A DNA stretch of 64,000 nucleotides. Origin: Coniferiporia sulphurascens (lineage: Eukaryota > Basidiomycota > Agaricomycetes > Hymenochaetales > Hymenochaetaceae). The stretch is from the NCBI GenBank assembly GCA_002794785.1, contig NBBA01000017.1, positions 620,001 through 684,000 on the forward strand, in the 5' to 3' direction. Every line of letters begins with the position of its first letter. The stretch's first letter is position 1. Both the position numbers and the translations under genes were made by a program. A model generated the notes under the pieces. The model saw nothing but the letters and a program-made list of their open reading frames with translations, made no database searches and was not told the DNA's origin. Shown here in pieces: positions 20,812-45,250 of the stretch.

Positions 20812-22159
20812 TGTTAGTAAATTGATGAAAATCATGATCGCTGGATCAACGGATTAGCAAGATCGACATGGCAAGACCTGTAACTTTAATCGATACAAGG
20901 AACCTGTGCCAATGCTGTAAAGATGCAGATCAAGTAGCATGGAAAGCTTTTAATATTGCATGCACAACAGTAGGACAGAATGCAGGATATGACAACTGTC
21001 AAATTACATTCAATCATACTACAAGGGAACAACAAGTGGCAGAAAGGCTAGAAGTAATAATCAAACATAGAGCAACTATGTTCTCATATCAATTGAATAG
21101 ATATGTAATCAGCACTTACACAAGAACCAAGATTTATAATCAGACACATAATGTATTATGTTATCAAAGGGCGGTTATTACATCAACCGATTATGCAGAA
21201 GCAGCACACCAAATAGTACATACTATCAATAAACAATTATGAGAACAACTATTCGCATACAAGGCCAACTTCATAGCCAAAGGACACACAACAGTAGATT
21301 GAAAGGAACCAAATCTAAGACAGGAGTTAGTACCAATAGATAAAGAGATTATAATATGATGGTTCAATGATGAACCATCATATAGAGTCACACCAGGGTA
21401 TAGCAGGATAACAAATATAAATGCTATAGGGCCTGAGGCACTCTTTATGCCAGTAGACGATAGGACACCAGAACGAACCCCTTTTAATGATATTATGGAA
21501 GGAATGACTCAATCTTAGTCTACGATATAAGTAACAAGCCACAACAAGATAAGATTAAGAAGGCTAGCATAATTGCTGAGCCACACAAGTATATCTAAGT
21601 GTTCGGCTAAGAATAGCCAATGGAAGCATGGTGATCAATTGAAGACGCAATTGATGGGAGCCAAGTATAGCACATTGCACAGCAGAACCAATTAGGAAGT
21701 AAGGAGAAGCATCATAGGTATAGTAGTATCCGAGAATGGTTAACTTAGGTATTATACTGTATGACTCGATGGAAACTCAAGGAAGGTTCTGGCATAAGAT
21801 AAAGATAGCACGGTAGGCTGTAGAATGTACCAGAATATATGACTGACTCATAGGAAGCTAAGAATAGTAAATAGCATGTACAGGACTGTACCAGAACATT
21901 CCTATGACTTATAAAGCGAGAGTAGTATGTTGTAGTATCTACCGGAACATAGTAAATAGACTACAACACATAGGGTATAAAAGCCCAATGTAAAATTGTG
22001 GTAAAAAGCAGTTTAATTCATCTCTTGTCTCTTACCACCATCATCAGCTCTAACACTCTAGCGAGTGAAGGGTAACAAGCCTACCCTAAACTAACTAGTA
22101 TTACTGTGTGAATCTGTTATCACTTGCTTCAATCCCTTACTCAGGGAGCGAATCTAACA
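20812..22159 (+). mobile_element. Element X2: solo-LTR-like insertion carrying an ORF
   Basis: 1348 bp, TGTTAGTAAATTGATG...GAATCTAACA, flanked by ATGAC (20807-20811 and 22160-22164). TATA-like GGTATAAAAGCCC near 21970 is ~185 bp before the 3' end. The ORF lies upstream of it. It interrupts the Gypsy RT cleanly, so it inserted after the Gypsy element did. Confidence 0.88.
20868..21520 (+). pseudogene. ORF inside X2 (unknown function)
   Basis: Begins MARPVTLIDTRNLCQCCKDA, open to a TGA at 21240-21242 (same codon as in X1), then continues in the same frame (AYKANFIAKGH) with further stops: one at VD*KEP where X1 has Arg, and one near IIQ. More decayed than X1. No family recognised. Confidence 0.55.
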
Positions 22160-23116: not shown

Positions 23117-23717
23117 TTAAAAATCCTCTCTGTCAAAGGCTTCAAAAACCTTTTCTTGTTCTTTCCTTGAAAGGGATGACATGAGATGCTTGATTGTGGC
23201 AGCAACGTCTTCTGGGGTTTCTTCCTTAGGGGGTGGAGGTGGAGGCATTTCGACAACATGGGGAGTGGGTTCTTCCACTTTTCGAACTGCAGTCTGGGTG
23301 TTTCCAGCTGATTTGCCACTACGAGGGTACTTAGGGCAATCTTTTGCATTGTGGCCCTTTTCCCTGCAAGCGAGGCATCTGCCTTCTGCAAGGCAACATG
23401 CCCTTTCTTCATCTGAGAGCTTGGAAGGTCGACTTGTTTTATCAAATGCTTTTTTAAAACGGTTTTCCCTGGGTTGGGTCGATTTTCGCTCCGTGGCACC
23501 CTGACGCCACTGGTTATCCATGTGAGACGAAACCTTGTACCAGGTTGCAAGTTTGTCAGGGAGAGAGTCTCGACTGTAGAAGCGCATATGCAGGCCTCTA
23601 TTGAGTCCTTCTTTAAACATTGTAATGAGGGCCTTTTCGTCTTTAACCTCGGATTTGATTACTGCAGATTTGAAGTGACTGATGTAGTTGTCTGCGATGT
23701 CTTGGCCCTGTCGAATG
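23117..23717 (-). pseudogene. Gypsy Gag, C-terminal part with CCHC knuckle
   Basis: Reads CIRQGQDIADNYISHFKSAV (the capsid-end block), then FKEGLNRGLHMRF, and a knuckle CLACREKGHNAKDC (CX2CX4HX4C) followed by a Pro/Glu-rich tail ending at 23117. The N-terminal capsid part is missing: at 23717 the sequence changes to the inverted arm of the KDZ element. Confidence 0.85.
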
Positions 23718-24366
23718 CACTTCAGGCACCCCCCCTGGGAGGACCTATTAGGTGGATCCGACCTTTGATGTGATTGACCTAATAGGTCTTTCCAGTGGTG
23801 GGATTCCCAAGTGGTCTGGGCATTCCCAGCAGCTGGGAGCTCCCAAGAATGACCTAGATATTCGGCTTGGGAGCTCCCAGACTTAGATAGGGTGTCAGGG
23901 GGATTTTTTTCTGGGATTTCCCAGCCTTTTTTGACCTACTTTTCTGGGATTTTTTTTTCATTTTTTGGGGGCATAATACAGGGATTCTGCACTCTTTATT
24001 CTGGTAAACAGTAGCCTTGAAGATCCAGTTGAGCTCTACATCCTCTGCTAGTGGATGTTTTGCTCACTTTGTTCCCAGGACACCAGTTAGTGATGTATGG
24101 GGTTGGCCATATTAGATGGTATTCCATGCTACTAACATAGTAGATAGTGGCAACAAGTGCTTCATTTGTGTATTCCAGGTTGCATTTGCCTTATTGACTT
24201 CGAAAAGAAGGAGAATCAAGTCAATGTTTCGCACTGTAAATTTAACCCACAGCTGAGAACTGACGTCTTTGGTTGTCGCCCCGTTCGAGGAGGGGAGGGA
24301 GGTTGCGACAGCATGATCCGGGGCGAGCTCAAGTGCCTTGTACAAATTTGATGTGTACTCAAGTGA

Positions 24367-24951
24367 CTAACAGTTAGTTTCAACCAGACCATCACAATCC
24401 CCCAAGTATGCACTTTGGTGCGCCTTCGTGATGTCGCCCAATGCCATGTGGGCACGCAGGAGCTGCGCCCACACACGCTGGGGAATGCCAATGTTCGCTG
24501 CCTGCAGACAGCTCACGACAGCATTCTCGATGATATGGTGCGAGAATGGACTGCAGCGACCAAATGGAATTAAATTTGCCATCAGCATGAGGGTAGGGTC
24601 ATGACTGGGTGCAGAACACAGAATGTTGGGCGCTCCCAACGGTGGGCACTCCCAGACGCTGGGCGCTCCCAGATGCTGGGCACTCCCAGATGCTGGGTGC
24701 TCCTGGACGCTGGGCACTCCCGGACACTGGGCGCTCCCATCGGTTGGCACTCCCTGCGGTGGGCATGCCCATTGTTTGGTAGTGCTCATGAAAGGCAATA
24801 AGTCAACATGTTGTTGATCATCCCCCCTTAGGATACTGGCTTCGGGTTTCCTTCTTTTCATTGACAGTTGGTACTTCGGTGGCCTGATTGTCACTCCTCT
24901 TGATTTTTTCCTTACAAACCTCTCGTCTGTCTCGCTGTCCACCGTGGGCAC
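24367..24951 (-). CDS. Hypothetical ORF in left arm spanning the minisatellite
   Basis: 194 codons. It starts MPTVDSETDERFVRKKSRGV (basic), passes through the minisatellite as a Pro/Gly/Ser-rich low-complexity middle, and ends in a helical-looking tail (FGRCSPFSHHIIENAVVSCL, then VWAQLLRAHMALGD). The outer parts are not repeat-derived and could be exons of a decayed gene; the middle is probably open by chance. No family recognised, and no equal tail in the right arm. Confidence 0.3.
   Translation of the reverse strand: MPTVDSETDERFVRKKSRGVTIRPPKYQLSMKRRKPEASILRGDDQQHVDLLPFMSTTKQWACPPQGVPTDGSAQCPGVPSVQEHPASGSAQHLGAPSVWECPPLGAPNILCSAPSHDPTLMLMANLIPFGRCSPFSHHIIENAVVSCLQAANIGIPQRVWAQLLRAHMALGDITKAHQSAYLGDCDGLVETNC
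24627..24780. repeat. 17-bp minisatellite in left arm
   Basis: About eight units of GGGCACTCCCAGACGCT (17 bp) with point changes. Each unit contains the TGGGNNNTCCCA half-palindrome that also occurs in the element's ends. Confidence 0.85.
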
Positions 24952-25382
24952 TCCCAGGCGGACATATTGAGGGTCGAAGAGTGATTGTCCAATTACCTAA
25001 GCGTTGTCAGCAAATGGTGAAGTCTAAAATGGTCTAGTTTGTGCAGATACTTACATTTATCAGCTTGATCTGGAGGCGAGCGATGGGAACAGGCGGTTTG
25101 ATTTTGATGGTCTGTAACCTCGAGTCCATGTAACTTCATCATATATTCAAATTTAGCTATGTACATCGTGTATCTGGTAATACAACTATAGCTACAACTT
25201 AACTACAACTACAGAGATAATGTCATTATAAATGCCTGTAGTCCTAAAGCCACAGAGTAGTACAGACCCTTGTCATATGCCCATTATTAAGAAAGATAGA
25301 AACGAGATTAAAAGGTGGCGATCCGCAAAGGGATTAAAGAAGTAACTAAAGTATGACCTTCCCTCCACTTTTACAAATACCC

Positions 25383-25779
25383 TCAAGACCTAAAGAAGAT
25401 AAAAGTACCCGTCTGTATAATGCCACCCCTGTTTAAAGTGTATAATAATAAGTATGAGACCAAATGAATTGAAGAAATGAAAAAACTCACCAAATGAATA
25501 AAAGGGATATGATGTGTCCACATCCACAAGTGACCCCCATCCCAGTAGTAGTACGACACCGTTAGGTGTGTATGCGTGTCCCCATAGCTCGAATGTAAGG
25601 TAGACCTGAGGCCCATAAGCAAAACCAGAGTGCAAAAAAAAAAAAATGCACTGAATGAAAACAGCCTCCAAGGCCAGGCCATAGACCCCGAGTCCAACAG
25701 ACCAGGCAGCATGCTCGCAGATGGAGCGAAAACCACAGTTGTTCGTGTAGGCGTGCCACAAGTACCAAAAGAGAAGCAT
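25383..25779 (-). CDS. Small hydrophobic protein encoded in left arm
   Basis: Frame of 129 codons, ~108 after splicing. Starts MLLFWYLWHAYTNN, then HAAWSVGLGVYGLALEAVF, LLLGWGSLVDVD and the end WHYTDGYFYLL. A GGTGAG...CAGGGG intron near 25434-25495 is at the same place in the right-arm copy. The stretch around GLGVYGLALEAVFIQCIFFF could span a membrane. A TATA box (TGGTATAAAAGCCGATG, minus, ~25875-25890) lies ~105 bp upstream, also conserved. Two diverged copies keeping frame, start, intron and TATA argue that it is real. Not recognised. Confidence 0.5.
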
Positions 25780-25930
25780 AGTAATAAAAAAAAGTAGAGG
25801 GGAGGGTGGGGGGAGGACGCAGGGGAATGTGGTGGTAGGAGGGAGAGAGAGGTTTTACGCGGCAGACGAACAGCATCGGCTTTTATACCAAGGTGCGCCG
25901 CAGCATGGCGGGTGGTGTGGCAACGGAAAC

Positions 25931-26166
25931 GATGCAGGCTGTGGGTGACATAAGGCGGGACTTTGAATAGCGTTCATATGTAGTCTCTTCGAATTCCTTA
26001 AAAGATTAGCCTTACATGCTGCCTTGCACTACTTCCCTTGGTATGTCACATTTGTCCATGCTCAACGAAATTGTTTTGACTTGAAGTGCGCGGAAATGTC
26101 GACTCATCTGTACGCACAAAATGTGTGATCTTCCATTACTGACTATTTAAAATTAGCACCATTCAT
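25931..26166. other. Spacer between arm and transposase gene
   Basis: AT-rich. It should hold the 3' end of the transposase transcript. No ORF or repeat seen. Confidence 0.4.
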
Positions 26167-29100
26167 TCAAACGTCCCTGCTGATTGAGTATAGTACATCA
26201 CCGACACGGGCACGTTTTGAAGGGGTAGTAAATATTGGTCTACCATCTGTATCCGCCACGCCCTCTGTTAAGTCTGCAGCTCCCAATTCCTCCACTGAAG
26301 TATCAAGTGCGAGGATATGTTTGTTGTCATGCTCAATGGCTTCGGCAAGCTCCAAGAATTCTCCATCATCGGTTTCGTCAAGTTCCGTCTCTTTGGCTTC
26401 AATGGAGTCAGAATCAGAATCTATTTGATGGCGCCTTGGAATAGATTGACTCACGTAATAGCTTGAGCTGCAGGTGTCCAGTTTGGTTTGCCTAAACGCT
26501 ATCAACTCTTGTTCGGTAGGTCCCCATGGTTTGTGTCGAAGGTCACTGGCCGTTGGGACACTTTCGACTTTACTCTGCCATTCAATATACAGCACGAGGA
26601 GATTCTGTCGCCTTAGCTCAATTGCATATCTAAGACCCATCAATATTTCTTGATCGAGAATCAGGTGAAGTACAAAGACTGAGAAGGTTGGCACAAAACT
26701 CACCTGGGGAGTGAAACGCTGCCGCCATAAGACTCCAAGTTTCAGAAAACCAGGTTTGCATTGCTGATTTCTCCCTCTCCAGACGCTTTCCTTCCTCCTC
26801 ACACCTTTGCACCTCTAATAGAGCCTTTATACCTTTCCTGACACTTTGGTCTCCGAGCCAACAGGGAATGTCGATGTCATCTTCATCGTAAAGGCTGATG
26901 TCATTCCAAATATTGTCATCAACGTCTAATTCAAATAGGCCCTTTACATCGACAGGTTCCGGACATCTTGAGCCTCACGGAGCCTTGCCTTCGTTAGCGA
27001 GTTTTCGAAGGGACCCGCACAATGTGTTATACTTCTTTGCTAGTTGAATGATCCCTGGATCTCGGCACTTGACTTGAGATTCTATCAGTTCAGTCTTCTT
27101 ATGATCTAGATAGAGTAAGCATCAATGAAAACCAAGGACTTGGAAAAGCTTGCCTTTAGTACCGTTATGTTGTGTTTGATACAGTCATTCGGTGCTTTGA
27201 AGCTCGAACTTGCGGGACTGAATCTTAGCACGCAGACGTGCTTTTAGAGCCCGTGCATTCATCCGACTATTAATAAAGGGACTATTTTTTAGCTCATCGA
27301 GTTTTTCTCAATCGCCAACTCCGAGAGTGTTCCTCTTTGCTAAGAGACTTGCAGAGACTCGTGCATACATGATCTCCATACCCTGTATGGAGCGCCGAAT
27401 CTCGCTAATATTGGCGTCCTCGTTCCCTAGACTTGCCTGAAGTGCGTGGATCTGCTGGGAAATAGCCTCACGACTAGACTGGAGCGCAGTGACATCTTCA
27501 ATGGCAGTATGTACCACCGACTTTGACTGACCTGGGGTGTAAGTGTTAATATACATTGTTCAGCTTTTTTTGAAGAGATAACTTACATGGCAATGCTTTT
27601 GTTTGCTCTTCAACCTGCTTAACCCACTCGGCTGCAAGCTCATCTTCGGGTACAGTGCAGCATACTAATTCTTTTTTCGCATTGTGTAACCATTGATAAG
27701 TTTGACGAGTCCGATTGAGCAACCATGCCCCGAGCTTAAAAAGATTACTGGCGCTCAGATGGTGCACTTGTACGTCGATTGTAGTTAGACGCTGGTAGAA
27801 CTTACGAAAAAAATGTAAGTGGGATGAGTTCAAATTAAACATAACTATATGCACGCCACTAATATGAAGAGTAGGTATTAGATGTTTAATCGAGCTCCAA
27901 AACCTTTCACAGCCTTCTCCGTCCATAAACCCAAACCCCTCACACTTTCATGGGTGGTAGACGAGTTGGCAAGCCCATTGATGACCAAACACATGAAAAA
28001 CTGCTATGGCGAAGACTATTCTTGCAGTGTATTGAGGCAAAAAACCCCATTTGACCGTACTGCGATGTAACTGACAGCCCATGTCATAAAGCACACTGAT
28101 GATAGTGTCACTCGGCAAGTTCTCAAAAAGCGCATTAAGCAGGGCGAAAGCAAAGTGCTGCTTTTCGCCCGCAGATTGCATGTTAACTAGCCATAGGATG
28201 CGATTGTGGCGGCAGAGTAGTGCCATGAGACCTGTGTCCGAAAAAAAATGAGTACTAGCTTTCTGATGGCATTCATCTGCAGCTTTAAAGGATGAATTAC
28301 ATTCATCGAGTACCTCATTCGGCACCCTTAGTTTTACCGAGCTCGCCGCTTTGGTAGCACCACCATGACTGCATTTGCATGGTGGTTGTATCGACTCTAC
28401 TACATTTTCCATATCTTTAACAGTTTTCTCATCGAGGAAAACGGATTTCGGGTGTTTGTAAGGTGGACCACAGTCTGTCTGGCCTCGCTTTTGTTGGAAG
28501 CATGCATCCAGGCAGACTGCCACATCAAAGCTGAGGAACGCAGGTAAGTCAGAAAGGGGACGCAATATATCAGAACATAAGGAATGTACACCAAATTAGG
28601 ATCATGAGTCCAATTCTTTCCCCCAAAACAGAGTGGACAGTGGTCGCAGAGGTAGGCTGAAGGTCGGTGGTTCGATCTGCTTTCAGTGGACTCTCCATGC
28701 TCAGATCCAGGTCCGGCAGTAGTATTGGCATGTTCTTCAGAATCTGATGTAATGAATAATCAGCACGTCTTTGATGATGTGTAAATAAAGTAAATATCAC
28801 ACCCTCAGCTTCGAAAGAAGCTTCCATGGCATACCTGCCACGGCTTGAGCCCTCCTCTGCTAATATGTACGCCACCATGTAATCATTGTTGGAAGCGATT
28901 CAACAGTAAACTCACGATCATTTAATTGGAAGTTGTCGTTTATAACTTGAAGACGAGGATTGAGGCGAGAGATCGGTGCAAGGTTGTTCGGGCACAGAGA
29001 GCTGGGCATCGAACTGGAACCCATGTACTCTGAAGGGGTCGTTGCTCTGTCAAGTGAGTACATATTTTCATCACTGGGAGATGGAATGGCACTGTCGACA

Positions 29101-30058
29101 TAGGCCGTTGTGGCATCCTGCAGCACGCTAAACCATTTCAAGCAGTTCCCAAAGCACTTTCGTATCGAATCCTATCAAATTGATCAAATTGAGCTTGGGT
29201 GGCTAAACTGTATATTACTCACTGAAGAGTTAAAATCATACCCACAAGTCTTCAAAAAGGCCTCCAGCATACCGCAAAATGCGGTCTGATTCGGTGGTAA
29301 GCGCAGGAACAGCTCGGTGCAGAACTCGAGCAAGTTAAGGTCGACAGCCATGGTGGGAAGGCAAGGTGCACATCCAAAGAGGCCGTGATCAAGGAGTTGT
29401 TTCGGTGCCATTCAACAGAGGCAAGTCTCTATGGATAATGTATCGAGACCTGTGGGATAGAATAAATAGACAATTCAGAACAGTAAAACAAGAAATTTTA
29501 CTTACGATCCCAATAAACACACAAAACTCGAACAGTTACCTGTTGCTTCAGGCATAAACAGCGAGGTTCTGCAGGAAATTCCACTGAGTTGCATAGTGAT
29601 TTTGAACGCTGAAGAACATCAAGGAAAGGCTCGATGAGTGTTGGAATCACTTCCTCAGTCCATCTCTGACACTGCCATATCCTCTTCCACCTATGCCTTG
29701 ACAGAGTCGGGTCAAGAGGTAACCTTCACGAAGTGATAAAAAATGAGCCCAATGTTTCCACTTCGTCATTGGCCATGAGATCAAACAACTCATTGTGGGT
29801 GATACCCTCATCTGCTAGAGCAGACTCCGGGTCATTGTCGTGGGGGCTAGAGGGAACGGGCGACGTTGCGGTGGGTACGTGAACTAGTGTTCTGTTGCCT
29901 GGTAAAAACACAAGTGGCGGGCTGAATCTCTTCTCTGGAGAAGAACCATCGATATATTCGGAGGAGTGCGGTCCTGGGAGAAGACCTGAAGGTCCTTCCC
30001 TCCAGGCTTTCAGACCTTTCTTCTGAGTGCGTGTAAGCTTTAAGCCCTTCAAGCCCAT
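26167..30058 (-). pseudogene. KDZ (Kyakuja-Dileera-Zisupton) family transposase
   Basis: Multi-exon minus-strand gene from Met at 30058 to the stop at 26167. N-terminus: RWTEEVIPTLIEPFLDVL, a Cys-rich CxC region (CLCLKQQVTVRVLCVYWDR) and HGLFGCAPCLPTMAVDLNLL, matching the CxC domains that precede KDZ transposases. Core: VAVCLDACFQQKRGQ (first Asp, ~28513), VLYDMGCQLHR (second Asp, ~28087) and MDGEGCERFWS (Glu, ~27915), the expected D-D-E set. C-terminal helices: MNARALKARLRAKIQ and CPEPVDVKGLF. In-frame TGAs at 29412-29414, 27308-27310 and 26975-26977 sit where Arg fits, so it is a recent pseudogene. It would cut and move the 17.4-kb element. Confidence 0.85.
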
Positions 30059-31370
30059 CTAAGAAAGTGAGCAACTCAGGGAATAAACCAAATGGGTAAA
30101 ACGACAAACTAGGAGCCAGCCACCGTCTGAAGTCACTTCAGGCGGAAATCGGAGCCATTATCATCGGGCCGGTTGTCTGGTCCGCATAAATTGCAGGCAG
30201 ATTCATCAAGCGAACTGAGTGCTACTTGTGTGTCTTATGCTTAGTGAGCATCAAGATGACTTTTGGAGTAAATATATAAAAGTGAACTAACCCTGAGATG
30301 AAAATTTTAGCAGTGATCTAATAGCACCCATGAACCTGCTGAGGTGCTCTCGTGACCTGATGTATCTGACATAAAAGAGAAAGACATGCTAAGCTACCTG
30401 TCAAACCATTCCCCCTCCTTTCCCTCCCTCCTTCATCTGCTTCCTCTTCTCATTATCAACTGAGACTATCAACAATGATACACTCACTATTGAGTTGATT
30501 AGTCACCGTGAATGTATGTTTTGTACCTATCACAGCACATTGGTATTGACACATATAATATTTCAGTAAGTGCGTGGCCTTATCTTTGGTTAACTTGACC
30601 TTGACCTATCTGATTGTATGTTGCTGGACCCTTGTGCAGGATGTTCATCGCCATATGGGCACATACATACCTCATGTTATGAAGGTGCTTGCAGTTGATT
30701 TCCCTCGCGGTCTAAATGACTATTAATTGTCTCGTCTTACTTTTGTTATCCGCTATTGAAGGTGTGTATAATCGTTTTCCTTTGCAGCTTAAATGACTAC
30801 TAACCCTTTTTCCTTTGAACTCATTTCCGTTGTTTTAGTGACTTACTTTCCAATAATGTAATGACAGGGCTACTAATGACTAGATCCTTTATCTTACTAA
30901 TAACTTTTTCTAATGTAGTCGGTTTAGTTTACAATGTAGTGTATGATCTAGTGATACAATGGTGGTGGTTTGGGATAAAGATTGGAAGGCGTTCCAAAAG
31001 TGGAAAGGGATGTGAATATGGAGCAATCACGCAAGTGGCGATTGTGTACTCTTGTTAGTAAGACTTCTAGTTAAGTGTTTTTCTTTCTCACGCACACAAT
31101 TGCTCTACACGATCCAGTCGGCCAAATTGGGAACAACTTCCCAACTCTCCTCTCAACCGCTACCATCCCCATTTTAGCTGGGACCGGCTAAGACCACTGT
31201 GTCGCTTTTTATATTACTAGATATAATTTAGATTAGCGATTAGTTACTTTACAGGGTTGTTACTTAGCAGAAAAGTCTTAGTAAAAGGCTAATTAAAATA
31301 TAACCTTTTATTGTCTACTTTTTTATTAATCAGTTAAATTAAAGGTAAGAAGGAATGTCGCGTGATTATC
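30059..31370. promoter_or_regulatory. Divergent promoter region between transposase and Spt5-like gene
   Basis: 1.3 kb between two head-to-head genes. It has a pyrimidine-rich tract near 30410-30440, as is common upstream of fungal genes, and otherwise AT-rich sequence. The short open frames here look like chance. Both genes must take their promoters from it. Confidence 0.45.
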
Positions 31371-34029
31371 ATGCCGGACTTCACTGATGACGTTGCACAG
31401 ATGTCTAAGAGAATAAGGTCCAGTGAAGTTGAGGCACTGCTGGATATTGAGGCCAGAGAAGCAGACAGTGTTGAGGAGGACGAAGATGGCGGCCAAGGTG
31501 CGATATTTAGTCAGTGAATTGAAAATGGTTTATACAAAGAATAAACAGTCGATGACTTCCTCGATGATGATGAGGAATTTCCTGAGTCCAGCATGCAAAT
31601 GCTCACCAGAAATGTGTCCCCGCCTCCAGTGGAAGTCTTTGACATGGAGACTTTAGCAAAGAGATATATTGAACGGAGCCGGAGGGAGAGACTACTAGAG
31701 AAGGGCATTGCATGCGACCTACGTCTTTGGATGATTTGGTCCCCGGTATGCTACTTTTTCACTACAGATGTATATTAGTTTTTCTCCCAGTAGACTGAGC
31801 ATCTGCTTGCTTATCCCGCAGCCTGGTAAGGAGCACCTCTATGCAAGTCGAGTAAATGCGCACCTATCGAAGCCGTCAGTGGCGTTCACCATACGTGTCT
31901 TGCATGGACGATTTTATGTTCGCACTTATACATTGACAGAACTTGACAATGCACGGAGAAATCTCGATGGTATTGACCATGCAAGTATTCTTTCTGTGCC
32001 TGTCGATGAGCATTTGCAAGTACTACGTCTTCTGGATAATGATGAAGCATCCACTGTCCCCAAGTTCCAACCCGGTGATTGGGTCTCCATGTGTAGAGGG
32101 TTGTACAAAGGAGATATTGGACGTATTTGTATGGTGCTGAATGATGATGACAACGTAGTACTGGCAGTCATGCCCTGAATATCTTTAAAAGATGGACAAA
32201 GCAAATTTCGACCCGAACCAGCATTGTTTAGCTATGGTGAGATGTGCCAATCTAACCACTCTAAGGACTGCCTTCATAAAATTAGCGAGTCTGAGTATCG
32301 TTTCAGATGGAGGACATACAGGGGTGGTCTTTGCGAGTTGAGAGTACCCACTTTACATTTTGTGAAAAAGGCGAAACTGAATCTGCATGAAATTGGTTTT
32401 TTTACTTCGACAGAGCACGACTTTGGCGAACTAGAAAAGGGGGAGCCCTTCCTGAGGTGTGGTGATCGAGTCAAAGTCGTCTCAGGAGCACAAGCCTCTC
32501 TTTGTGGTGTAGTCATTGACATGACCGGTGACGAAATTACTGTCTATGATCTGGTTGATTATACAGGTAATTACAGAGTCAAGGAGCTGCACATTTCCAC
32601 CTTCAGTGTAACACGGATACTGGACATTGGGGATCACGTCTGAGTGAAACTAGGTCCCCACACAGGCGTTGAAGGAATGATAACAAGTGTCGATGAGCAC
32701 TACCTGACTATTCAACCTACTGACAGCACTAATGAGGTCAGTTTTGAGCAGAATAAATGATCAATGCGATACTCCGTTAATTCGAATTCTCCAGGTAAAC
32801 ACCTGTGCAAAATGGGTTGAGACTTACACACCCGACTTCAGGCAAGAACAGGAGCGTGTATGCTCTACTTCAAAAGAGTTCTCACTGCACTTTCACGATC
32901 CCTATCATGGACTCCGGGTTTTGGTATGGAAGGACAGAAAGCTAAAGGGTACCTACGGATACATGCACAGCTGCCATCCAATCAACAAAACTGCTCAGAT
33001 ATCACGCAATGGAACGACCGATAAAACTCTACATACAGTAGAGTTGCAACATCTAATCTCCATGTAAGAATATGATAAAGGTTTATTCTATGATACTTAA
33101 TACCATAGCAGCTCGTCAGTATCCTGTCTGGACAGTGCGCATCCCCTCTCTGACGAAGAGAGGGCATATTACTCAACAAAATTCAAGGAATACACTACCA
33201 TCAGTGCTCATCCAGTAATGCCCCCACCCGATGTGTGCACGGATGCCGCCGGGCCGTGGTCTGTAGATGAAGCAGACAAGACTGGTGCAAAATGTCCGTC
33301 TGTTGTCGCTGAACAAACTTTGTCAGGTCAGTGTCTCCCTTTGCTTCGCCCTCATGAAATGAGTATACTCACTGACTCAGGATAGATTTCTCCGGTCCCA
33401 GAATGTGGGTATTATCGCCCGCACTGCAAGCACACATTCCAGAATATCGCATACATTTCTCATGCTCGGATTCATCCCGTCCGATTTACACAGAAAAAGA
33501 ATTGTTCGGCAGCAGAGAACATTCCCTGTGTTCATCAGGTCACAATCGTTGTCGCATACACATCAGGATGCAGAATGCTCAACTCAATTACCGGTCTGAG
33601 CTAATATGGGTTAGTGCACTCCAGCCAAGGAGGCCACTAAAGGGCAAACCAGCTCTGGTTATCAATGGCAACCCAGATCTTGTGGGTACCATTGTCACCA
33701 TTAAGAGCTTAATAAAGGAAGGGGGCTTTTACAAGTCGGCCCTGGTTGTTGACTCCAAGAATCGCACTTGGCCACCCGAACCCATCGACAATGTGACCTG
33801 AGTCAAGTGTCTGGCAGATATGGATGATTGTTTGTAGAGTATGAGGATATTTGTAGCTATGTAAATAATGACATTTATTTTGCTCACTTCCTCCAGTCGT
33901 CTGCAGTTCAAGTCGGACCACCCTCACTTCAAGTAATACTGGTGAGTAATGCTTTTTAACCCGATGGATCTGTGATAACACCACCTTCCAATTTCAGGTA
34001 GTCCTGTGTGGTTTCATGTTTCAGATTAA
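31371..34029 (+). pseudogene. Spt5-like protein (NGN domain plus KOW repeats), transposon cargo
   Basis: Acidic N-terminus (MPDFTDDVAQMSKRIR), introns 31498-31548 (51 bp) and 31746-31821 (76 bp), then an NGN-like domain (PGKEHLYASRVNAHL, GRFYVRTYTLTELDNARRNL, ILSVPVDEHLQVL). KOW repeats follow: FQPGDWVSMCRGLYKGDIGR, CGDRVKVVSGAQASLCG, GPHTGVEGMITSV and later PALVINGNPDLVGTIV. This is the layout of elongation factor Spt5/NusG, which clamps RNA polymerase. TGAs at 32176 (VMP*ISLKDGQS) and 32641 (DHV*VKLGPHTG) stand where Arg fits. A tail GPPSLQVIL...GSPVWFHVSD ends at 34029 if introns are placed by eye. A full host Spt5 is longer; this looks like a transposon-borne relative. Confidence 0.75.
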
Positions 34030-34497
34030 GATCTCATTGCGAAACTCCACAGCCTTGTCAGAAACTGCAAGGCCATCTGACCCATTTGGCATGGCAAAAA
34101 GTGTGTTCATTTTATCCATGTGAGTCACGGCCACCGTTTGAACTATTACAAGTGACTGCAGCGTTTTTCGATTAGCGAACTTCCGATAATATTGATTTCT
34201 CTGTATGGACAAGTGCACCTTGCGACATTAGGTGGTATTTTCTTTATGCACACAATTCACGTTGTTGGGACGTGGGTGGCTGAATCTCCTGATTGGGCCT
34301 CATGTCCCACACACATATGTCACACAGTACATAGCTTGGGTATATATATTCCTATGCAGCTTTAATACTGTCTTTGTCGCCCTTACAATGGTGCTCACAC
34401 GAAGTACAAGACCAGGTATTGGTTGTGTTATATGCAGTGGTCGTCTTACCCACTTACTATCTCACTAGCTGAAGCGGCCGATACACCTCCTGCCCAT

Positions 34498-37400
34498 ATG
34501 ACAAGGAGTAGTAAGAACAAGGTGAAGCTTTCATTGTTATATCAGTTTTTGCAACACACCTTACATTTCATCAGGGAACGGAATCGACTGGCCACCTGAC
34601 GAAAATAAAGCAGAAGTCAAGGAAGTCTAAGTCTAGGAAGAAAGGCCAACCCGATGATGCCGATGAAGACGGACGTAATGCCCCAGAGCTTACGAACGAA
34701 GGTCAATGTAGTGGAAAGGGGGCAACAAATTCCAGGAAAGTAGGAAACGCAGTAGGCATTTTCCCATCTTCGAACATAAATACATAATGTACGCAGGTGA
34801 GGCAGGAGGAAGCCGAGAATATTGAGCCAGTTGGTCAAGAGCAATTACAACAAGAGCTGGCTGAGATGGGGCAAGTGGAGCCAGTGCAGATGGAACAAGA
34901 CGGGGTGGAATCGGCGCAAGCAGAACAAGATACTCACGGACATACAAGACGTCAGCTATCTGATGATTCTGTGGAGGATGCCATTGGAGAGGTAGTAAAA
35001 AACTTTCTGACGTTCAATCATCTCTTTAATATTTTTTGCAAAATTTTCAGCCAAACAAGCGCTCAAGGCAGGAAGAAAGCCTCAGAGAGGATAGCTTCAA
35101 TCTCTCCATGAGGATGAAGTCCAGAGTGTCTAACTTGCACAGACATGATTCAGTCAACAAGGGGTGCTCTGCCATAAACTCTACTCCGCGTGCCCCTGTC
35201 CATTTACCATTGACAACACTACAGCCTGGGGTGCAGGAGCATCTGCAGAGTCTGCCCGAGGATACACCGACTTCGGATGATGCAAGCAGGGCGCCAGTGG
35301 TGCCAGTAGGCACAACAGCTCCTCTTAGAGAACCCAGTAGGCAGAACTTCATCTACCATTATCTGGATAATTCATTGACATGCTATCTATCACAGCTAAC
35401 AGGGAGTACAACTCCAGGGTCCCATCTCAGTTTTCCTCTCCACAACCCTCGCTTGAAGCAGGCATTCCCCTCAACCTCTCCACTGCGGGCCCACCATGTC
35501 CTTCTGCTCACACCGGACTTCGAAAAAAGGTGGATGGAAATGATCATACCATCTTGCCGGGAAATAATCAGGAAGAGGTCAATTCTGACAGTGACGGTGA
35601 TGGCACGGAGGATGAGTATAAGTCACAACCATCTGATCATGAAGGCGATATCGACAATGAAGAGGACATGATGCGCAAGTGTGTGCGAGAGAGCGGTGAC
35701 GAATCGACTCACTCTAAGAAACGATCATCAAAAGCGAAGCAAGGGAGGAGGGAGAGTAACAGGAAGAGGAAGGGTAAAGATAGAGCTGAAGCACTCCTGC
35801 CTGGCGAAACCCAGGGCAGGGAGTTCAAAGCTGGTCCAATACGATCCTCTGTGATGCGAAGAGCGGAGAAGGCCTATGATATGTTCTTGCAAGAGATAGA
35901 TGCGATCAGCAAGGAGGAGGACTGCGCCGACTCGTCGTACATCCTGTGTAAACTCGGCGTTAAGCATAAGGAGTTGCGAGAGGCAAATGCATACAATGTT
36001 TATGCTTCTTGGCATCGAGAGAAGTTCCCGAAATCAAAAGAAGGTGAGTTCCTTTTTTTTGATGATGGCTTTTTTGCTGAGTGATCCATAGTCCCTCCCA
36101 AACAATACAAGCAGATGGATAAGAAAAAATACTATGAGATAGTTCCTGGTGGCATCAAAGACATGATGCAGGATGAAATCAGGGAGTGCTTACGTGAGCA
36201 ATTTGAATGGCATGAGGCAAACGAAAAGGACACTCTGGTTACAACGCCCAACCTGCCGGCGCTCCTGAACGTGGGTAAAACCGAATTTATCCGAACGGTA
36301 TCTGCACCCTTGTGTATTATCTGCAAATACTGATAATTTTTATTGTAGTCGGAGAGATTCTTTGAGGACACTCAGACAGTGACCATCATGTTTGCAGTTA
36401 ACATCTCTGGGAATCCTAAGGCACGTGATTCGACTGCAATCTATGCCGGCACAGAAATTTCTCGTGTAGTGATGGAAAAGAATTCATATTTCTTCAGTAA
36501 CACCTGCAAGCAGATCGATACGCTGATAATGTCTGTTGTATCTGGTCTTTTGTACTCTCGGGCTGAATAATTATTTGCAATCATTTAATTACAGGGTGGC
36601 TGACCTAGATATTCAGGGCATAACGAGACCGGACAAGCCAGTGTTGGGCATAAATTTGGAAGGCACAGATGGCTGCAATGGAGATCGCAATTGCACACTC
36701 TATTCCAGACAGCTAGCCACATCTGCAAGTAAGTCCATTGCTTGTCTCTTGGTCATTATTTCTTTTAATATTATTGTGTTCACAGACACAATATTCGATG
36801 CAAGGGATGAAGCCCTTAAGGACTCGAAGGAAAAGACACCACGTGGCACCGTTAGTTACAAATACTTCCGTGCGTTCCTCGTTAAATACAAGCTTCGACT
36901 TGTAGGTGTCCCAGACGAGGACACTTTTAGCTGGGCATTGGATAAACCCTCTTCCCATCGCATACCTCGTGGAATGATTGGATGGATCGTGGATGCGATC
37001 ATCAAGGAGCAGGAAGCCTTACAGAAAGGGGAGGACATTTCGGAGTTGGAGGGGAAAGTTCTGAGGTTTGAGGACATCAGTCAAGGTATGCTTGTATTGC
37101 ACGGTTCTATGCATTCTAATCTCATATTGGTCACAGTTTACAAAACTGATGACTTAAACTCGATTAAAGATGTCACCGTCATCAAGTCCGTGAGTGGTCG
37201 CCCACTACTCATACTCGACCAAATTCCCGAGTTTCACAAGAGAGCTAAACAAAGCCGAAGCTCCGCACGTACCATCCGTGAACTCGACGAAACCTCATTC
37301 AACTATTATGAGGATGGGTCAATAAGGTATCAGCTGTCTGATACAGCCAACTACCATGAAGGCGAGTGCACATCTATTTATGATCTGCCGCTGGTACGGG

Positions 37401-37552
37401 GTCGACGTAAGCCCGACAATGATAGGTGGAGAATATACAACAAGTTCACCAAGGAGCTTGTGCCAATCCTGGCTGGTTTCACCAAGCCCATGAAAGACAG
37501 TGATGACGAGGGCGACAATGAAGGCAACAATGATGACCGAGCTCACACTTAG
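34498..37552 (+). CDS. Ten-exon cargo gene, 851-residue acidic/basic protein of unknown function
   Basis: Exons 34498-34521, 34575-34739, 34797-34991, 35051-35336, 35396-36043, 36092-36297, 36349-36530, 36595-36728, 36786-37085 and 37137-37552. All introns are GT-AG and all phases agree, giving 2556 nt with no stop until TAG. The N-terminal third is Lys/Ser-rich with nuclear-localisation-like runs (KQKSRKSKSRKK, SKKRSSKAKQGRR). The middle has AYNVYASWHREKFPKSKE, faintly HMG-box-like. A folded region contains LDIQGITRPDKPVLGINLEG, YKYFRAFLVKYKLRLVGVP and PRGMIGWIVDAIIKEQEAL. The tail is acidic (DSDDEGDNEG). No family recognised. It is the only large gene here without a break, next to a broken transposase. 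Confidence 0.7.
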
Positions 37553-37858
37553 GACTAATATCTTTCATGTCAGTAGACTTCGAATGAATTACTGTAAGAA
37601 GCGCCTTCCCCTTCATAAGATTGAATACACCTCCTATGTGAATGGGTCAAATACAAAAGGTGTGTTTGTTTGATATTCGTTTATTTATAACCTTTGCCAG
37701 GACTAGCTGTGTGGGAGGGGCTTCGATGTCGTAACTCTTCAAAGTTGGTCTTTTTGCTGGCATGAAGTAGACTCAAGGAAGTGCGAGAAAAGACCGTTTC
37801 GACAGAGAAACTTCTCATATGACGTGCATCACTCCTAGATAAAATAAGGAAAGCTGCG

Positions 37859-38179
37859 GTGATGAACCTCCGTATCACCGATGACTACCAAATCGAGCGA
37901 ACTGGATGTATGCATACTGGGACAGATGATGTGAGCAATATATTGATCGCTGCCCCTGACTCTGTATCTGAAGCGCTCATGTGGCATCACCGACAGAAAG
38001 CAGCCATTGAGACTAGCAAATTCATTAACGTGAAATGTCATGGCCATTCAGGTTCCTGCACATCATCAGAGGAACATTCATTCTCTAGGACATCCTGTCA
38101 ACAGTTAAAGCTGGTGAGTGTGGGCAGTAAAGCACCTGTTGCCATTCTTCCACCTCGCAAACCTGATCTAGTCCAGTAG
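37859..38179 (+). CDS. Hypothetical ORF downstream of the cargo gene
   Basis: 106 codons, MMNLRITDDYQIERTGCMHT to LPPRKPDLVQ, possibly extended by splicing. Moderate complexity and no recognisable motif. It could be the last exon of a decayed gene. Weak support. Confidence 0.25.
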   Translation: MMNLRITDDYQIERTGCMHTGTDDVSNILIAAPDSVSEALMWHHRQKAAIETSKFINVKCHGHSGSCTSSEEHSFSRTSCQQLKLVSVGSKAPVAILPPRKPDLVQ

Positions 38180-38544
38180 TCTGCCCGCCCGTCTGCACCT
38201 CGGACCCGGGCCTTCAACTCTCTGACTGAAGGTACTGTGAAAAGCTTCAAGCCAAGCGGAGCATGAGTAAGCCACACTTACTATGGCACGCAATCGATTG
38301 GAACATTCAAGTAAAGTAGAGCGGCAAGTCATGGCCAAGAAAGAGGAAAGAAAAGCAGCAGCCTTGAAGAAGAAGATGGTGATAAGAGGTTGAGTGCAAA
38401 GCCGCAGCACTGATGCTCACTGAGCACATATAAGCTAGGTAAGCTTCCGGTTGTGTCAGGACCTACATCGAAGCGGCAGTCGATGCTGTAAGTCGAAGAC
38501 TGTGTACGTTGCTGCACCGCGGCACAGTGGGCGGTGCGGTGCAC

Positions 38545-38560
38545 CTTGCTATAAAAGCCG
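38545..38560 (+). promoter_or_regulatory. TATA box of the right-arm small gene
   Basis: TGCTATAAAAGCCGATG, ~105 bp before the ATG at 38657. The left arm has TGGTATAAAAGCCGATG at the matching place. Confidence 0.55.
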
Positions 38561-38656
38561 ATGCCGTTCATCTGCCGCATATAACGTCTTTCCCCTCCTA
38601 CCACCACATTCCCTTGTGTCTTACCCCCACCCCCCCCTCTGCTTTTTTTAATTACC

Positions 38657-39049
38657 ATGCTCCTCTTTTGGTACTCATGGCATGCCTACACGAATAACCG
38701 TGGCTTTCACTCCATCTGTGAGCATGCCGCCTGGTCCGTTGGTCTCGGGGTCTATGGCCTAGCCTTGGAGGCTGTTTTCATTCGGTGCATTTTTTTTTTT
38801 TTTGCACTCTGTTTTGCTTACGGGTTTCAGGTCCACTTTACACTCGAGCTACAGGGACACGTGTATGCACCTAACGGTGTTGTACTTCTACTGGGATGGG
38901 GGTCGCTTGTGGGTGCAGACACATCATATTCCATTTATTCATTTGGTGAGTTTCTTTCTTTCTTTCCATTCACTTCCTTTCATTTGGTTTATACTTATTA
39001 TTACTTACAGGGGTGGTGCTACACGGATGGTTACTTCTATCTTTTGTGA
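38657..39049 (+). CDS. Small hydrophobic protein encoded in right arm
   Basis: Paralogue of 25383-25779: MLLFWYSWHAYTNNRGF, HAAWSVGLGVYGLALEAVFI, then a hydrophobic run, LLLGWGSLVGADTS, and after an intron (GTGAGTTTC...TTACTTACAG, ~38945-39009) GWCYTDGYFYLL. One or two membrane-spanning stretches are possible. Transcription would run outward, toward the element's end. Unknown function. Confidence 0.5.
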   Translation: MLLFWYSWHAYTNNRGFHSICEHAAWSVGLGVYGLALEAVFIRCIFFFFALCFAYGFQVHFTLELQGHVYAPNGVVLLLGWGSLVGADTSYSIYSFGEFLSFFPFTSFHLVYTYYYLQGWCYTDGYFYLL

Positions 39050-39562
39050 AGCTTAGTTGGAAATTGTAAAATTAAAGGGGAAGGCATACTTTAGTTATTC
39101 GTTAATGTTTTCGCGGATCTCCACTCTCTTATTCTCGTTTCTGTCTTTTCTTTAATAATGGACAATGGCAATGGTCTGTATTACTTTAAGGCTTTAGAAC
39201 TACTGGCAATTCTAACAATATCATCTCCTGTAGCTGTAGTTGTATTACTAGACACATGATGTACATAGCGAAGTCAAATATACAATGAAGTTACATAGAT
39301 TTGGATTATTGCGCACTCTCAGACAGAATTCACTGGGCATAAGTAATTTTTATTCTCTTTTTGACTGGATGTCACTAAGTACATTCGATCAGCTCAGCAG
39401 GTATCATGGGCCCAAGTGGATATGTCAGCTCTTCAAGCTCTTCTTCACAATATTACATTTCAATTCACACTAGAGAACAACATCTACTCACTCGTATGAT
39501 CAATCGAGGTGAGCAGCACCATTTTTGTGAGCTTATCAAATTTTGTCAGTGATGGCTTGTAT

Positions 39563-39735
39563 GGGAGTGCCCATTGGTGGGAGCGCCCACCGCTGGGAGT
39601 GCCCACTGCTGGGAGTGCCCACCACTGGGAGTGCCCACTGCTGGGAGTGCCCACCACTGGGAGTGCCCATAGGTGGGAGTGCCCATCGCTGGGAGCGCCC
39701 ATTGGTGGGAGTGCCCATCGTTGGGAATGCTCACC
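39563..39735. repeat. 16-bp minisatellite in right arm
   Basis: Ten or so units of GGGAGTGCCCACTGCT (16 bp), the reverse complement type of the 17-bp left-arm array. Because 16 is not a multiple of 3, all frames stay open through it, which explains several chance ORFs. Confidence 0.88.
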
Positions 39736-39749
39736 CTTGGCATTCCCAA

Positions 39750-40934
39750 ACAATGGCTGCATCTCAGTGCGTTGGACCAGGACCACCTCGAGAAATTTTG
39801 CGGAAAAGGCTGTTGCCTCTGACTGACCACAAATATATACCTAGTGTTCCTATTGTCACTATCTTTGGCTTGTCGTTTGAGTCAGACAATGAGCTGTGCC
39901 TGTACAAAGCAAGCACTCTTCCTGGATGCGGTTCACGGCGCCTGCGCCTGGATGATTCCGTCTGTTCGATGAGCACGCCAAACAGGGAACCGGGTGGCGC
40001 CTGACAAATATGCCAGTTCTATGTTCCAGAACAGCCCGAGCCCGAAACATCTTCCTTCACCAAGGCTTTCTCTAGCATTCATGAAGAAAGGACTGGTCAC
40101 GGTTAAGCAGCATTGATTGTGTTTGCTAACTGGGCCAGTAATTTATTGCTGACGAATATTACATTAATGCCAGGCAACACAAGGTAGAAAGCTCGGGGAC
40201 GCGCATGATCATAATTGTACCTAATTACAATCGGGTTCCCTCCTCACTTAGTATCGGAAGTTTCGGCCTCATGAGTCGGAGTTCAAGCACAAACCGAAGG
40301 CGTTATGGAAATTTGCCACGACTGCTATTCTTGCAGAGATTCATGACAAAATCAGAGATGGACATTGGAGTCACTTTCAGCAACGTCCCAATGACAGACA
40401 CCGATATATTGGATCATTTTCATATGTTTTATTTTTTATTATTTTGTCGACATTATCTGAAACGGTCCAATGTTCAGGCAGATTTTTCAAAAAGTGAGCA
40501 TCACTCAGAAGAATGTTGTCCTGTGCTGACTTATCTTCTGTGGTTCCTACTTATTTGAGACTAATCACAGTGCTCAGGCTCGCAACTGTGAAGACATCAA
40601 TAGATTGAGTATAAATTTACCTGTATTGCCATATACACCATATACGGCCATAAAAGAACCATACCATACCGTAATTCATGTCTAACAACTCAAATTATGG
40701 CCATAATTGTGGCCTGTATCTGCATATGTGCCGTATTTTAAAATACGGCTGTATTCATATACAATGTGGTGCAGAGCCCTAATTGTGTATGGAGGACCAA
40801 ATTCATTACAATACTGGCTGGGTACCACTACTCGGGGATCTGTGGTGAAAAATAAGGAGGGCAGGGAACAAACAGTAGCTATGATTAGTACATGAAGTAT
40901 GTACTACATAGGGTGAACATCAGGACTAAATGTA
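39750..40934. other. Right-arm segment without left counterpart
   Basis: Mostly unassigned. A short open stretch after the minisatellite (MAASQCVGPGPPREILRKRL, 39752-40004) is not recognised. Near 40610-40770 is a palindrome-rich patch. Confidence 0.35.
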
Positions 40935-41161
40935 GGAAATTAGGTCAAAAATGGCTGGGAAATCCCAGAAAAAAATCCCCCTGACACCCTATCTAAGTCT
41001 GGGAGCTCCCAAGCCGAATATCTAGGTCATTCTTGGGAGCTCCCAGCTGCTGGGAATGCCCAGACCACTTGGGAATCCCACCACTGGAAAGACCTATTAG
41101 GTCAATCACATCAAAGGTCAGATCCACCTAATAGGTCCTCCCAGGGGGGGTGCCTGAAGTG

Positions 41162-43743: not shown

Positions 43744-44984
43744 CGCATCCCCCATGGATGGACCCCCTGGCTTTCACTAAAGGCCGTATCCGTTTCACCA
43801 CCCCCCGCACCCCGGTTAGCACCGACACCTGCAAACAGTTTGTGAGTGCCGCACGTGAGCTCAGCTCCACCCCCCACGTCCAAGTCTTCATGGACAGCTC
43901 CCACATCAACAATAAGTCGGGATCAGCCATCTGTGCCATTCTCGGCTCCACCTGTCTCCGGTCTCGATGACTGGAGTCCCCCACCTGCGCCACTGCCATG
44001 GATGCTGAGGAGTTCTCCCTCACTACAGCTCCAGGCTGGGTTGCGTGCCGCCTCCCGGCACAACTGCGTGTCGCATTGGACATCTTCTTCCTGTCTGATT
44101 TGCTGACTGCACTGCACCTCTTCCGCACGTGGGTCGCCGCCCCTGGTGCCCACCTCCTACACATCTGGAAAGCGGGGGTGGAGACTCTGCTGGACTTGTA
44201 CCCCCAGATCACTGTTCACTTTGTATGGTGCCCTGGACACTCAGACATCCCTGGGAATGAATGGGCTGACATGGAAGCAAAACTGGCAATGGAGCTCCCC
44301 CCATCTGACCTAAAGCCCTCCACCTCTGTGCTAAAAGAAGTCGCCATCCACACCCTCATGGATTGGTGGACCCTTTCGCTTGCCCGCCCCTTTGCCTCCA
44401 CCACTGACAAATACTTGGTGGTACACGGCCTCCCCTCTCTCCGACCTCGAAAATTGCTTATGCATTCGGTCAACCACCCACACAGTGAGCTCTCTGCAGT
44501 TGCACAGGTCCTCTGCCATGCCGGTCCCTACAGGGGCTACTGGCTGAGCTTTGACTCAGCCTACTGGTGCAGGCATGGCCTGATTTCGCATTGCAGGTGG
44601 CACAACCACCCCCCCTGGCCTGTGCAGTCGACCACCCACATACTCGGTGGCTGTAGCACTTTCCACCTGTGGATATGACACATATGGCCACCTCAGGACC
44701 CTCTCCCAGTCCACCACTCAGAGTGGGCTGATGAAAACTGCCTCCCAGTTCTGCACTGTTGGCTCAAACTAATGGGGCATCTGAACTGCCTTTCCGACAG
44801 GACAGCAGGTGCCATCCGGCTGGCCTTTGCCACAATGGAACTCAACAACCACCCAACTGACAAGGATATGGACTTGGACCTCCTAAGGGAATACATGCAT
44901 TGTATGCTTGGACCACAAACCCAGGACTCAGACCCAGCCCTTTTGGAGCTATCAGGTATGCTTCCCCCCTTTCCTCTGGATTAG
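43744..44984 (+). pseudogene. LINE ORF2 RNase H and C-terminal tail (chimeric copy)
   Basis: PLAFTKGRIRFTTPRTPV, then RNase H: VFMDSSHINN (Asp present, TDGS changed to MDSS), MDAEEFSLTTAP, FFLSDLLTALHLF and WCPGHSDIPGNEWADMEAK. Then YLVVHGLPSLRPRKLLMHSV, FDSAYWCRHGLISHCRWHNH, a TGA after FHLWI (44676-44678), and HSEWADENCLPVL through LLELSGMLPPFPLD. Stops at 43968 and 44678. Confidence 0.85.
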
Positions 44985-45228: not shown

Positions 45229-45250
45229 AGGGCCCCCCCTTTGGGGGGGC
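45229..45250 (+). other. 3' UTR hairpin of LINE family A
   Basis: Stem GGGCCCCCCC / GGGGGGGC around TTT, followed by TTGTAATTATG and GCAGGAATAAT at the tail. Same element near 10903, 12591 and 15079. Family B keeps the stem with other bases (48264-48283, 49437-49455, 62336-62352). A likely RT recognition structure (inference). Confidence 0.6.

Follow-up and report, generated by a model that had tools for sequence, protein, structure and literature searches.

The window, the whole 64,000-nucleotide stretch of Coniferiporia sulphurascens DNA that we analysed, contains a 17.4-kb KDZ (Kyakuja-like) DNA transposon at positions 23718-41161 (Table 1). The functional unit of this element consists of a transposase gene, an Spt5-like gene arranged head-to-head with it and a third gene behind, all lying between symmetric ends. 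The terminal inverted repeats of the window copy are 228 nt each and 98% complementary, and inverted blocks weaker than the ends lie further in, at about 24.6-25.9 kb and 38.5-39.75 kb. Scanning the window for tRNA genes returned none.

Table 1 Features of the element and of its surroundings, in window coordinates.
Feature	Position	Strand	Description
Multicopy repeat, 442 bp	21718-22159		Outside the element; empty form of the insertion site of the C6 copy
Left terminal inverted repeat	23718-23945	+	Element start CACTTCAGGCACCC; complementary to 40934-41161
Left subterminal array	24624-24771		Short palindromic units of GGGAGxxCCC type; candidate transposase binding sites
Inner left arm	25472-25902	+	85-90% inverted match to 38535-38964
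KDZ transposase block	26095-30455	-	Pfam KDZ; coding pieces modelled within 27555-30058; three in-frame TGA (window copy)
Region between divergent transposase and Spt5-like gene	30059-31370		Partly conserved
Spt5-like (NGN-KOW) gene	31371-33834	+	Six exons, three in-frame TGA
Exons of the Spt5-like gene	31371-31497, 31549-31745, 31822-32736, 32795-33063, 33112-33326, 33386-33834	+	
Second cargo gene	34388-37552	+	Open frame of 870 residues in 11 exons; matches no Pfam family
Inner right arm	38535-38964	-	Pairs with 25472-25902
Right subterminal array	39559-39756		GGGAGxxCCC-type units; candidate transposase binding sites
Right terminal inverted repeat	40934-41161	-	Element end GGGTGCCTGAAGTG

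The first-pass annotation of this DNA had proposed a KDZ transposon with matching inverted ends, and had made recurrence of the cargo between two ends its main test. We found that the transposase, the Spt5-like gene and the third gene are enclosed between ends in two further copies elsewhere in the same genome (C18:214979-233442 and C6:753222-771327; C1, C3, C7, C12 and C14 likewise denote loci of that genome), which together with the terminal repeats and the KDZ domain match bears the proposal out. The gene blocks of these copies are 73-82% identical to those of the window, and one of the two copies is short of 31 nt at one end. The three-gene unit was thus transposed as one piece, and an Spt5 relative is also cargo in a diverged second element family.

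The left terminus of the window copy recurs in the C6, C18 and C1 copies. The window copy and the C6 copy both begin and end as CACTTC..GAAGTG (5'-CA..TG-3' type); the CACTTC start is also found at the single outer end read for C18 and for C1, and the same terminus stands at a lone end at C3. Counts of the GGGAGxxCCC-type motif are confined to the first and last tenths of the window, C6 and C18 copies and to the first two tenths and last tenth of the C12 element, where a search for exact ends found subterminal arrays alone. The C6 copy has arms of 2.53 kb that are 99.7% identical, and it is flanked on both sides by a perfect 7-bp target duplication, TTTAATT, within a repeat that also occurs in an uninterrupted, empty state. 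Recurring copies and this duplication rule out an inverted repeat arisen by chance. No target duplication was found at the window copy, whose two flanks match different repeats, and its joined flanks used as a query returned one-flank matches only and no joint copy (40 scored of 70 candidates). The window copy is therefore probably the product of recombination between copies, or has lost one side. The anatomy of the element is well supported.

The transposase matches the KDZ domain (PF18758) at 183 bits (cut-off 26.6, E 6.9e-54), and CLDACF, LYDMGCQ and DGEGCERFW, which we take to be the catalytic motifs of KDZ transposase, can be read in it. Matches to the CxC region were weak and below cut-off (CxC1, 22.6 bits against 26.9, E 1.2e-4; CxC2, 18.6 bits against 27, E 0.002). 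The block is ~81% identical to the C18 and C6 copies, and dN/dS between copies is 0.26. In the window copy, three in-frame stops interrupt the 743 modelled codons. A stop that C18, C6 and C1 share, at codon one of the final modelled piece, may be an intron instead, so that these copies have one or two transposase stops. Between the divergent genes, identity with C18, C6 and C1 reaches 75-77% over a segment at about 30960-31252.

For the Spt5-like gene, introns were placed from splice signals and comparison with copies. Pfam identified KOW (E 3.5e-9) and KOW2_Spt5 (E 5e-7) domains, while its NGN model found no match in the window protein, and a PDB search with the first 413 residues hit Spt5 chains (E 3e-8). 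Combining a family profile with an AlphaFold model revealed an NGN fold followed by a KOW1-linker and by KOW2/3-like and KOW5-like parts, fold assignments being limited to model residues 96-472, with most of the protein beyond at pLDDT <50. These parts and an acidic N-terminus stand in the same order as in host Spt5/DSIF. Profile, PDB matches and model uphold the first-pass reading of an NGN-KOW protein related to Spt5, and demonstrate that the family keeps the RNA polymerase II-binding core of Spt5. In contrast to host Spt5/DSIF, no C-terminal repeat was seen in the window gene model, which has about a dozen residues after its last conserved segment, and the glutamate of NGN reported to be essential for Spt4 binding is replaced. 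This glutamate is present in host Spt5 and in three of three other Spt5s, whereas none of the 18 transposon-type proteins covering the site retains it; 12 have glutamine, as in NusG. An NCBIfam search with an intact relative from Phellopilus gave one NusG match, below threshold.

Besides host Spt5 (C14:1088 kb), the genome holds 22 clusters of the Spt5-like family, half of which (11/22) have a KDZ transposase no more than 25 kb away, every one of these in head-to-head orientation. Many of the matches carry stops. Host Spt5 is ~28% identical to the Spt5-like protein over residues 129-415, and a tree that also takes in proteins of other species parts it from all 19 others by a long branch, on midpoint rooting only, with the host row 37% filled and a long-branch warning. 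The tree and this low identity rule out a plain duplicate of host Spt5, an outcome that the first-pass annotation had named as refuting its proposal. Clear relatives outside the source genome were found in two species only, one of them a Phellopilus and both of them Hymenochaetales.

The third gene was first described as intact at 851 residues; it is indeed open, but its 11-exon model encodes 870. No Pfam family matched the protein, and residues 380-860 found no relatives when queried against a large protein set. Its C-terminal half may resemble a transposon-linked protein common in Agaricomycetes. Relatives of the gene adjoin Spt5-like genes, and exon length differences common to C18 and C6 are multiples of three, except for 2 nt beside the stop. 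Substitutions between copies reveal past purifying selection on the element genes and show that selection kept them, although its hold on the first part of the third gene was weak. The window copy itself is dead: its transposase and Spt5-like gene are broken and the third gene alone is open. It therefore cannot now act as the first-pass annotation proposed, with an NGN-KOW protein that could bind RNA polymerase and free the element's genes from silencing or pausing.

Strong genomic evidence thus places a piece of the elongation machinery in one transposon lineage, and we found no case of a transposon carrying an Spt5-like elongation factor in the literature searched. Kyakuja, members of the KDZ superfamily in Laccaria bicolor and other Agaricomycetes, have been described with TET/JBP genes, and TET-bearing transposons have been reported in five orders, Hymenochaetales not among them (PMC12730594). 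The element shares with Kyakuja its KDZ transposase, 5'-CA..TG-3' termini, 7-bp target duplications and an accessory gene thought to counter silencing; it differs in its Spt5-like and third genes, in that no TET/JBP was seen in it, and in its terminal inverted repeats, which measure 228 nt in the window copy and 2.53 kb in C6 and which the described L. bicolor Kyakuja lack (PMC12730594). PF12851 and PF20515 (TET/JBP) matched nowhere in the genome, but neither did the controls, which leaves the power of this search unproven. The accessible part of a report on Cryptococcus neoformans KDZ1-KDZ3 describes elements that likewise have a KDZ transposase and terminal inverted repeats (139-241 bp) and are mobile as a unit, but that are 9-11 kb long with 8-bp (4-8) target duplications, against three genes, a length of 17.4 kb in the window copy and a 7-bp duplication in C6; the transposase is the sole gene named there (PMC12810828).

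We hypothesize that the window element, now dead, belongs to a Kyakuja-like KDZ lineage whose Spt5-like protein resembles RfaH in function, as an elongation factor that does without Spt4 and sustains transcription of the element in methylated chromatin, and we give this reading a probability of roughly 55%. The element would make its own elongation factor, which would bind Pol II without Spt4, because no family member examined retains the glutamate that binds Spt4, and would compete with or supplement host Spt5. The long, intron-rich element genes could thereby be transcribed through methylated, silenced chromatin, and the Spt5-like protein would fill the niche thought to be held by TET/JBP enzymes in other Kyakuja; the last step of this mechanism is the least certain. 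RfaH and plasmid-borne NusG paralogs, some on mobile DNA, are thought to sustain transcription of long foreign operons (PMC7593976). Like them, the protein is a NusG/Spt5 paralog borne on mobile DNA that would work without Spt4, whereas RfaH is bacterial and recruited at ops DNA (PMC7593976). By this analogy, a selfish, Spt4-independent Spt5 that joins Pol II at the element and helps it traverse chromatin methylated by the host, as an alternative to the TET/JBP of other Kyakuja, is a tentative proposal that we hold at somewhat under even odds.

Having neither a C-terminal repeat nor Spt4 binding, the protein might instead be a decoy on Pol II or a silencing complex that blocks host co-transcriptional silencing rather than aiding elongation, which we consider unlikely. 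Its recognisable part is the polymerase-binding core, with little behind it in the window model, and the family profile also matches plant KTF1/SPT5L (E 3.7e-13). That Spt5 paralog, which has NGN and KOW domains and, according to the accessible part of its source, recruits AGO4/6 in transposon-related, RNA-directed DNA methylation, illustrates that Spt5 paralogs can act in silencing (PMC10229537). KTF1/SPT5L is described there as the product of a host gene, one that favours silencing and carries a GW/WG repeat tail (PMC10229537). However, it itself pairs with SPT4 (PMC10229537), and loss of the Spt4 site fits a decoy and an elongation factor alike. It is also rather unlikely that the Spt5-like and third proteins take no part in transcription and are instead transposition machinery, used for nucleic-acid binding, target choice or protein scaffolding. 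KOW domains do bind nucleic acids and proteins, and the head-to-head order with the transposase in all 11 pairs found would suit such a role, but what the protein has retained is the set of domains that sits on the polymerase, NGN fold included, and the mobile Cryptococcus elements have the transposase alone named in the accessible text (PMC12810828).

Domestication, in which the family now serves the host and the elements have only spread copies, some of them domesticated outside elements, appears improbable: stop-free pieces do lie away from KDZ matches (C1:428 kb, with 526 matched residues, is one), but the sole such locus examined, at C7, proved on inspection to be a truncated element, and stops are found in many family members. 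Large elements can pick up host genes, and broken copies make up the window's family, yet the chance capture of a duplicated host Spt5 by a pair of ends is scarcely credible given selection between copies, a three-gene unit in two diverged families, 11 pairs in one orientation and separation from host Spt5 on a multispecies tree.

Previously known transposon cargo includes enzymes thought to erase silencing marks (TET/JBP). If the elongation-factor reading is true, the family would parallel, in a eukaryote, the RfaH-type NusG paralogs known from bacteria and plasmids, and the 22 clusters would be explained as transposon cargo, not host elongation factors. Should the mechanism hold, the universal NusG/Spt5 family has become a means of expressing foreign DNA on two occasions, one bacterial and one fungal. 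Loss of the Spt4-binding residue yields a clear prediction on the use of Pol II by an Spt5 without Spt4. As a separate observation, an excess of 'CA' probably reflects decayed CpG sites read on the opposite strand and not a separate context.

The KDZ transposon in the window combines a transposase with an Spt5-like gene and a third gene of 870 residues (the 870 gene), with exon models made by hand from splice signals and comparison with other copies. The outermost 228 nt of its arms are 98% identical and the inner arms ~80%, unlike the copy on contig C6 of the same genome, whose whole 2.53-kb arms are 99.7% identical. The modelled transposase pieces comprise 743 codons, and the CxC matches of this protein fall under the Pfam cut-off.

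Features of the window element and its surroundings (window positions)
Feature	Position	Strand	Remarks
Left end	23718-23945		228 nt, 98% complementary to the right end
Right end	40934-41161		228 nt
Left arm	23718-26052		
Right arm	38535-41161		
KDZ transposase	between the two ends	minus	Pfam KDZ, E 6.9e-54
Spt5-like gene	31371-33834	plus	KOW domains and Spt5 matches; six exons, 724 codons ahead of the stop
870 gene	34388-37552	plus	eleven exons, 870 residues
442-bp repeat	21718-22159		
Gypsy-type retrotransposon pieces	13857-19656 and 23117-23935	minus	RT, RNase H, integrase, chromodomain and gag-like matches
Far side of the window	43971-62186		several RNase H matches; looks repeat-rich too
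Endonuclease/RT region	57792-59276		

Searching the genome (39.35 Mb, 31 contigs) with the end sequence gave eight matches: the two window ends, a pair each on C6 and C18, and single ends on C1 and C3. Both pairs contain the transposase, the Spt5-like gene and the 870 gene at 73-82% identity to the window and on strands opposite to it; the right end of the C18 copy is 31 nt short. The C1 copy retains the left end, a partial transposase and most of the first Spt5-like exon before it is interrupted by a repeat, and no matching gene block was found in 20 kb around the C3 end. The C18 and C6 copies are 693 transitions and 23 transversions apart. Their Spt5-like genes also have private inserts of 432 nt in C18 and 263 nt in C6 (after window positions 32135 and 33657, respectively), perhaps small nested elements.

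The C6 copy starts with CACTTCAGG, ends with CCTGAAGTG and is bordered on both sides by TTTAATT, a 7-bp target duplication. The element-free form of this site, with a single TTTAATT, is present in the 442-bp repeat of the window, and the duplication together with this empty site proves that the element has moved. Our guess is that the repeat, which has at least 40 copies (40 scored of 214 candidates in the genome), is LTR-like; further copies are present in the vicinity of the C18 element and where the C1 element is cut off. No target duplication was found around the window copy, whose flanks resemble different repeats, and the joined flanks had no joint copy among 40 scored hits. The window element is located on the margin of a gag-like repeat. 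Palindromic units of the GGGAGxxCCC type are found only in the first and last tenths of the element (9 and 12 in the window, 10 and 10 in C6, 10 and 10 in C18).

CA..TG termini and 7-bp duplications are the features that the available text of Kojima gives for Kyakuja elements (PMC12730594), and the C6 copy agrees in both. The Kyakuja of L. bicolor described there differ from the present element in being without terminal inverted repeats. The same text records TET-bearing elements from five orders of Agaricomycotina, with Hymenochaetales absent from those named, and offers as speculation a role of transposon TET/JBP enzymes against silencing; Spt5 and KOW go unmentioned in its available part. 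Two TET/JBP models found no match in our genome, which is suggestive at most, as the controls were also without a match. In the accessible open literature on KDZ, Kyakuja, Dileera and Zisupton elements and on transposon-linked Spt5, KOW or NusG, no such element was reported. The founding 2014 paper, which reportedly defined KDZ elements, lies outside that coverage and possibly contains an earlier remark.

The association of the two genes extends beyond this family. Seventy-two genomic matches to the Spt5-like protein were grouped by eye into 22 clusters, host Spt5 excluded (two of them, separated by 8 kb on C4, may form a single cluster), and 24 KDZ matches into 20. A KDZ transposase lies within 25 kb of 11 of the 22 Spt5-like clusters, head-to-head in all 11. 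Nine of the 22 have one inside 15 kb; 20,000 random placements averaged 0.34 and reached 5 at most. These placements were uniform, so that clustering of repeats is left out of the null. Nine of the 20 KDZ clusters partner no Spt5-like cluster. Of the 11 pairs, four are from the window's own family and a further three sit close on the tree, leaving about six independent lineages. The element on C12 represents a distinct family and has the same three genes in identical order. Its transposase is 59% identical in the query range 429-735 and 37% in the range 10-322, and its Spt5-like exons match at 34-55%. There are no stops in the 682 residues of its Spt5-like matches and two in each of its two main transposase matches, and GGGAGxxCCC-type units occur only in its first two and last tenths (14 and 12, within limits that we set). 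The one examined among the 11 Spt5-like clusters without KDZ, on C7, shares 93-96% identity with C12 across its gene blocks and is cut short by repeats. At all seven loci where the match is clear (window, C6, C18, C12, C7, C14 and C1:244 kb), an 870-gene relative follows the Spt5-like gene and shares its strand; weak matches at C12:521 kb and at C10:1697 kb, where the match precedes the Spt5-like gene, were left uncounted. The C10 match (C10:1697505-1697720) is part of an open frame of 545 residues, flanked by a KDZ transposase (1688 kb) and an Spt5-like gene (1703 kb), and may mark a further family in which the gene order differs.

Comparing the window with C6 and C18, Nei-Gojobori dN/dS was 0.31 and 0.34 for the Spt5-like gene (719 codons), 0.26 and 0.26 for the transposase, and 0.47 and 0.42 for the 870 gene (0.35 and 0.32 over residues 380-870; 0.69 and 0.60 over 1-379). 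Shifted-frame controls for both cargo genes (window-C6) gave 0.81, 1.02, 0.93 and 0.90. With transversions only, the ratio was 0.49-0.51 for the transposase, 0.59-0.63 for the Spt5-like gene and 1.06-1.10 for the 870 gene (1.74-1.98 in shifted frames). Between C18 and C6, where nearly all changes are transitions, it was 0.45 for the Spt5-like gene, 0.35 for the 870 gene and 0.70 for the transposase. Neither C18 nor C6 has lost a window codon of the Spt5-like gene, and both carry the same 6-nt insertion there; common to the two in the 870 gene are insertions of 186, 78, 6 and 9 nt and deletions of 6 and 2 nt, the latter adjoining the stop. By these ratios and the indel pattern, all three genes were selected as coding sequence in the past, with weak selection on the first part of the 870 gene.

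All copies are broken today. The Spt5-like gene has three in-frame TGA in the window and two stops each in C18 and C6; the 870 gene is open in the window and has five stops each in C18 and C6, with private deletions of 23 nt and 1 nt, respectively. The transposase has three in-frame TGA in the window and two stops each in C18, C6 and C1 (the last lacking 201 codons); in each of these three copies, one stop falls on codon 1 of a modelled piece and may be intronic. Private C-to-T changes in C18 or C6 affect 41% of CpG, 13% of CpA and ~1% of CpC or CpT, a pattern that suggests CpG methylation; the genome has two matches to a DNA-methylase domain.

The Spt5-like gene moves with the transposon, has been under selection and encodes an Spt5 core. 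The motif G-x-[IF]-[YF]-[VI]-E of NGN strand 3 ends in Glu in host Spt5 and three other Spt5 proteins (P0004-P0006). This Glu is absent from all 18 transposon-type proteins covering the column, a set without the short P0007 (of uncertain kind, with P) and three stitched copies lacking the site. Twelve of them have Q instead, the window and C6 copies R, the C18 copy C, the two Phellopilus proteins L and the Phellinidium protein D. By count in the yeast alignment it is residue 338, which we take to be the Glu of the yeast Spt4-Spt5 structure. A literature search found no number for this yeast Glu, and the available passage of a review of NusG evolution gives none (PMC7593976). That passage describes one universally conserved Glu as essential for Spt4-Spt5 binding, and Gln, the NusG residue at that position, as abolishing it (PMC7593976). 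Spt4 itself has a single match in the genome, on C5.

We propose that the Spt5-like protein would bind Pol II, act free of Spt4 and benefit expression of the element. The closest working model is the specialised NusG paralogs, some plasmid-borne, which activate long foreign operons silenced by NusG and Rho (as outlined in PMC7593976). A rival reading, in which the protein is a decoy that blocks silencing, finds an echo in plant KTF1/SPT5L, as far as the available text describes it (PMC10229537). Two closely related Spt5-like copies, at C1:428 kb and C3:1820 kb, show at most one stop across their matched residues and have no KDZ hit closer than 25 kb; they may point to recent activity, a different transposase or a use by the host.
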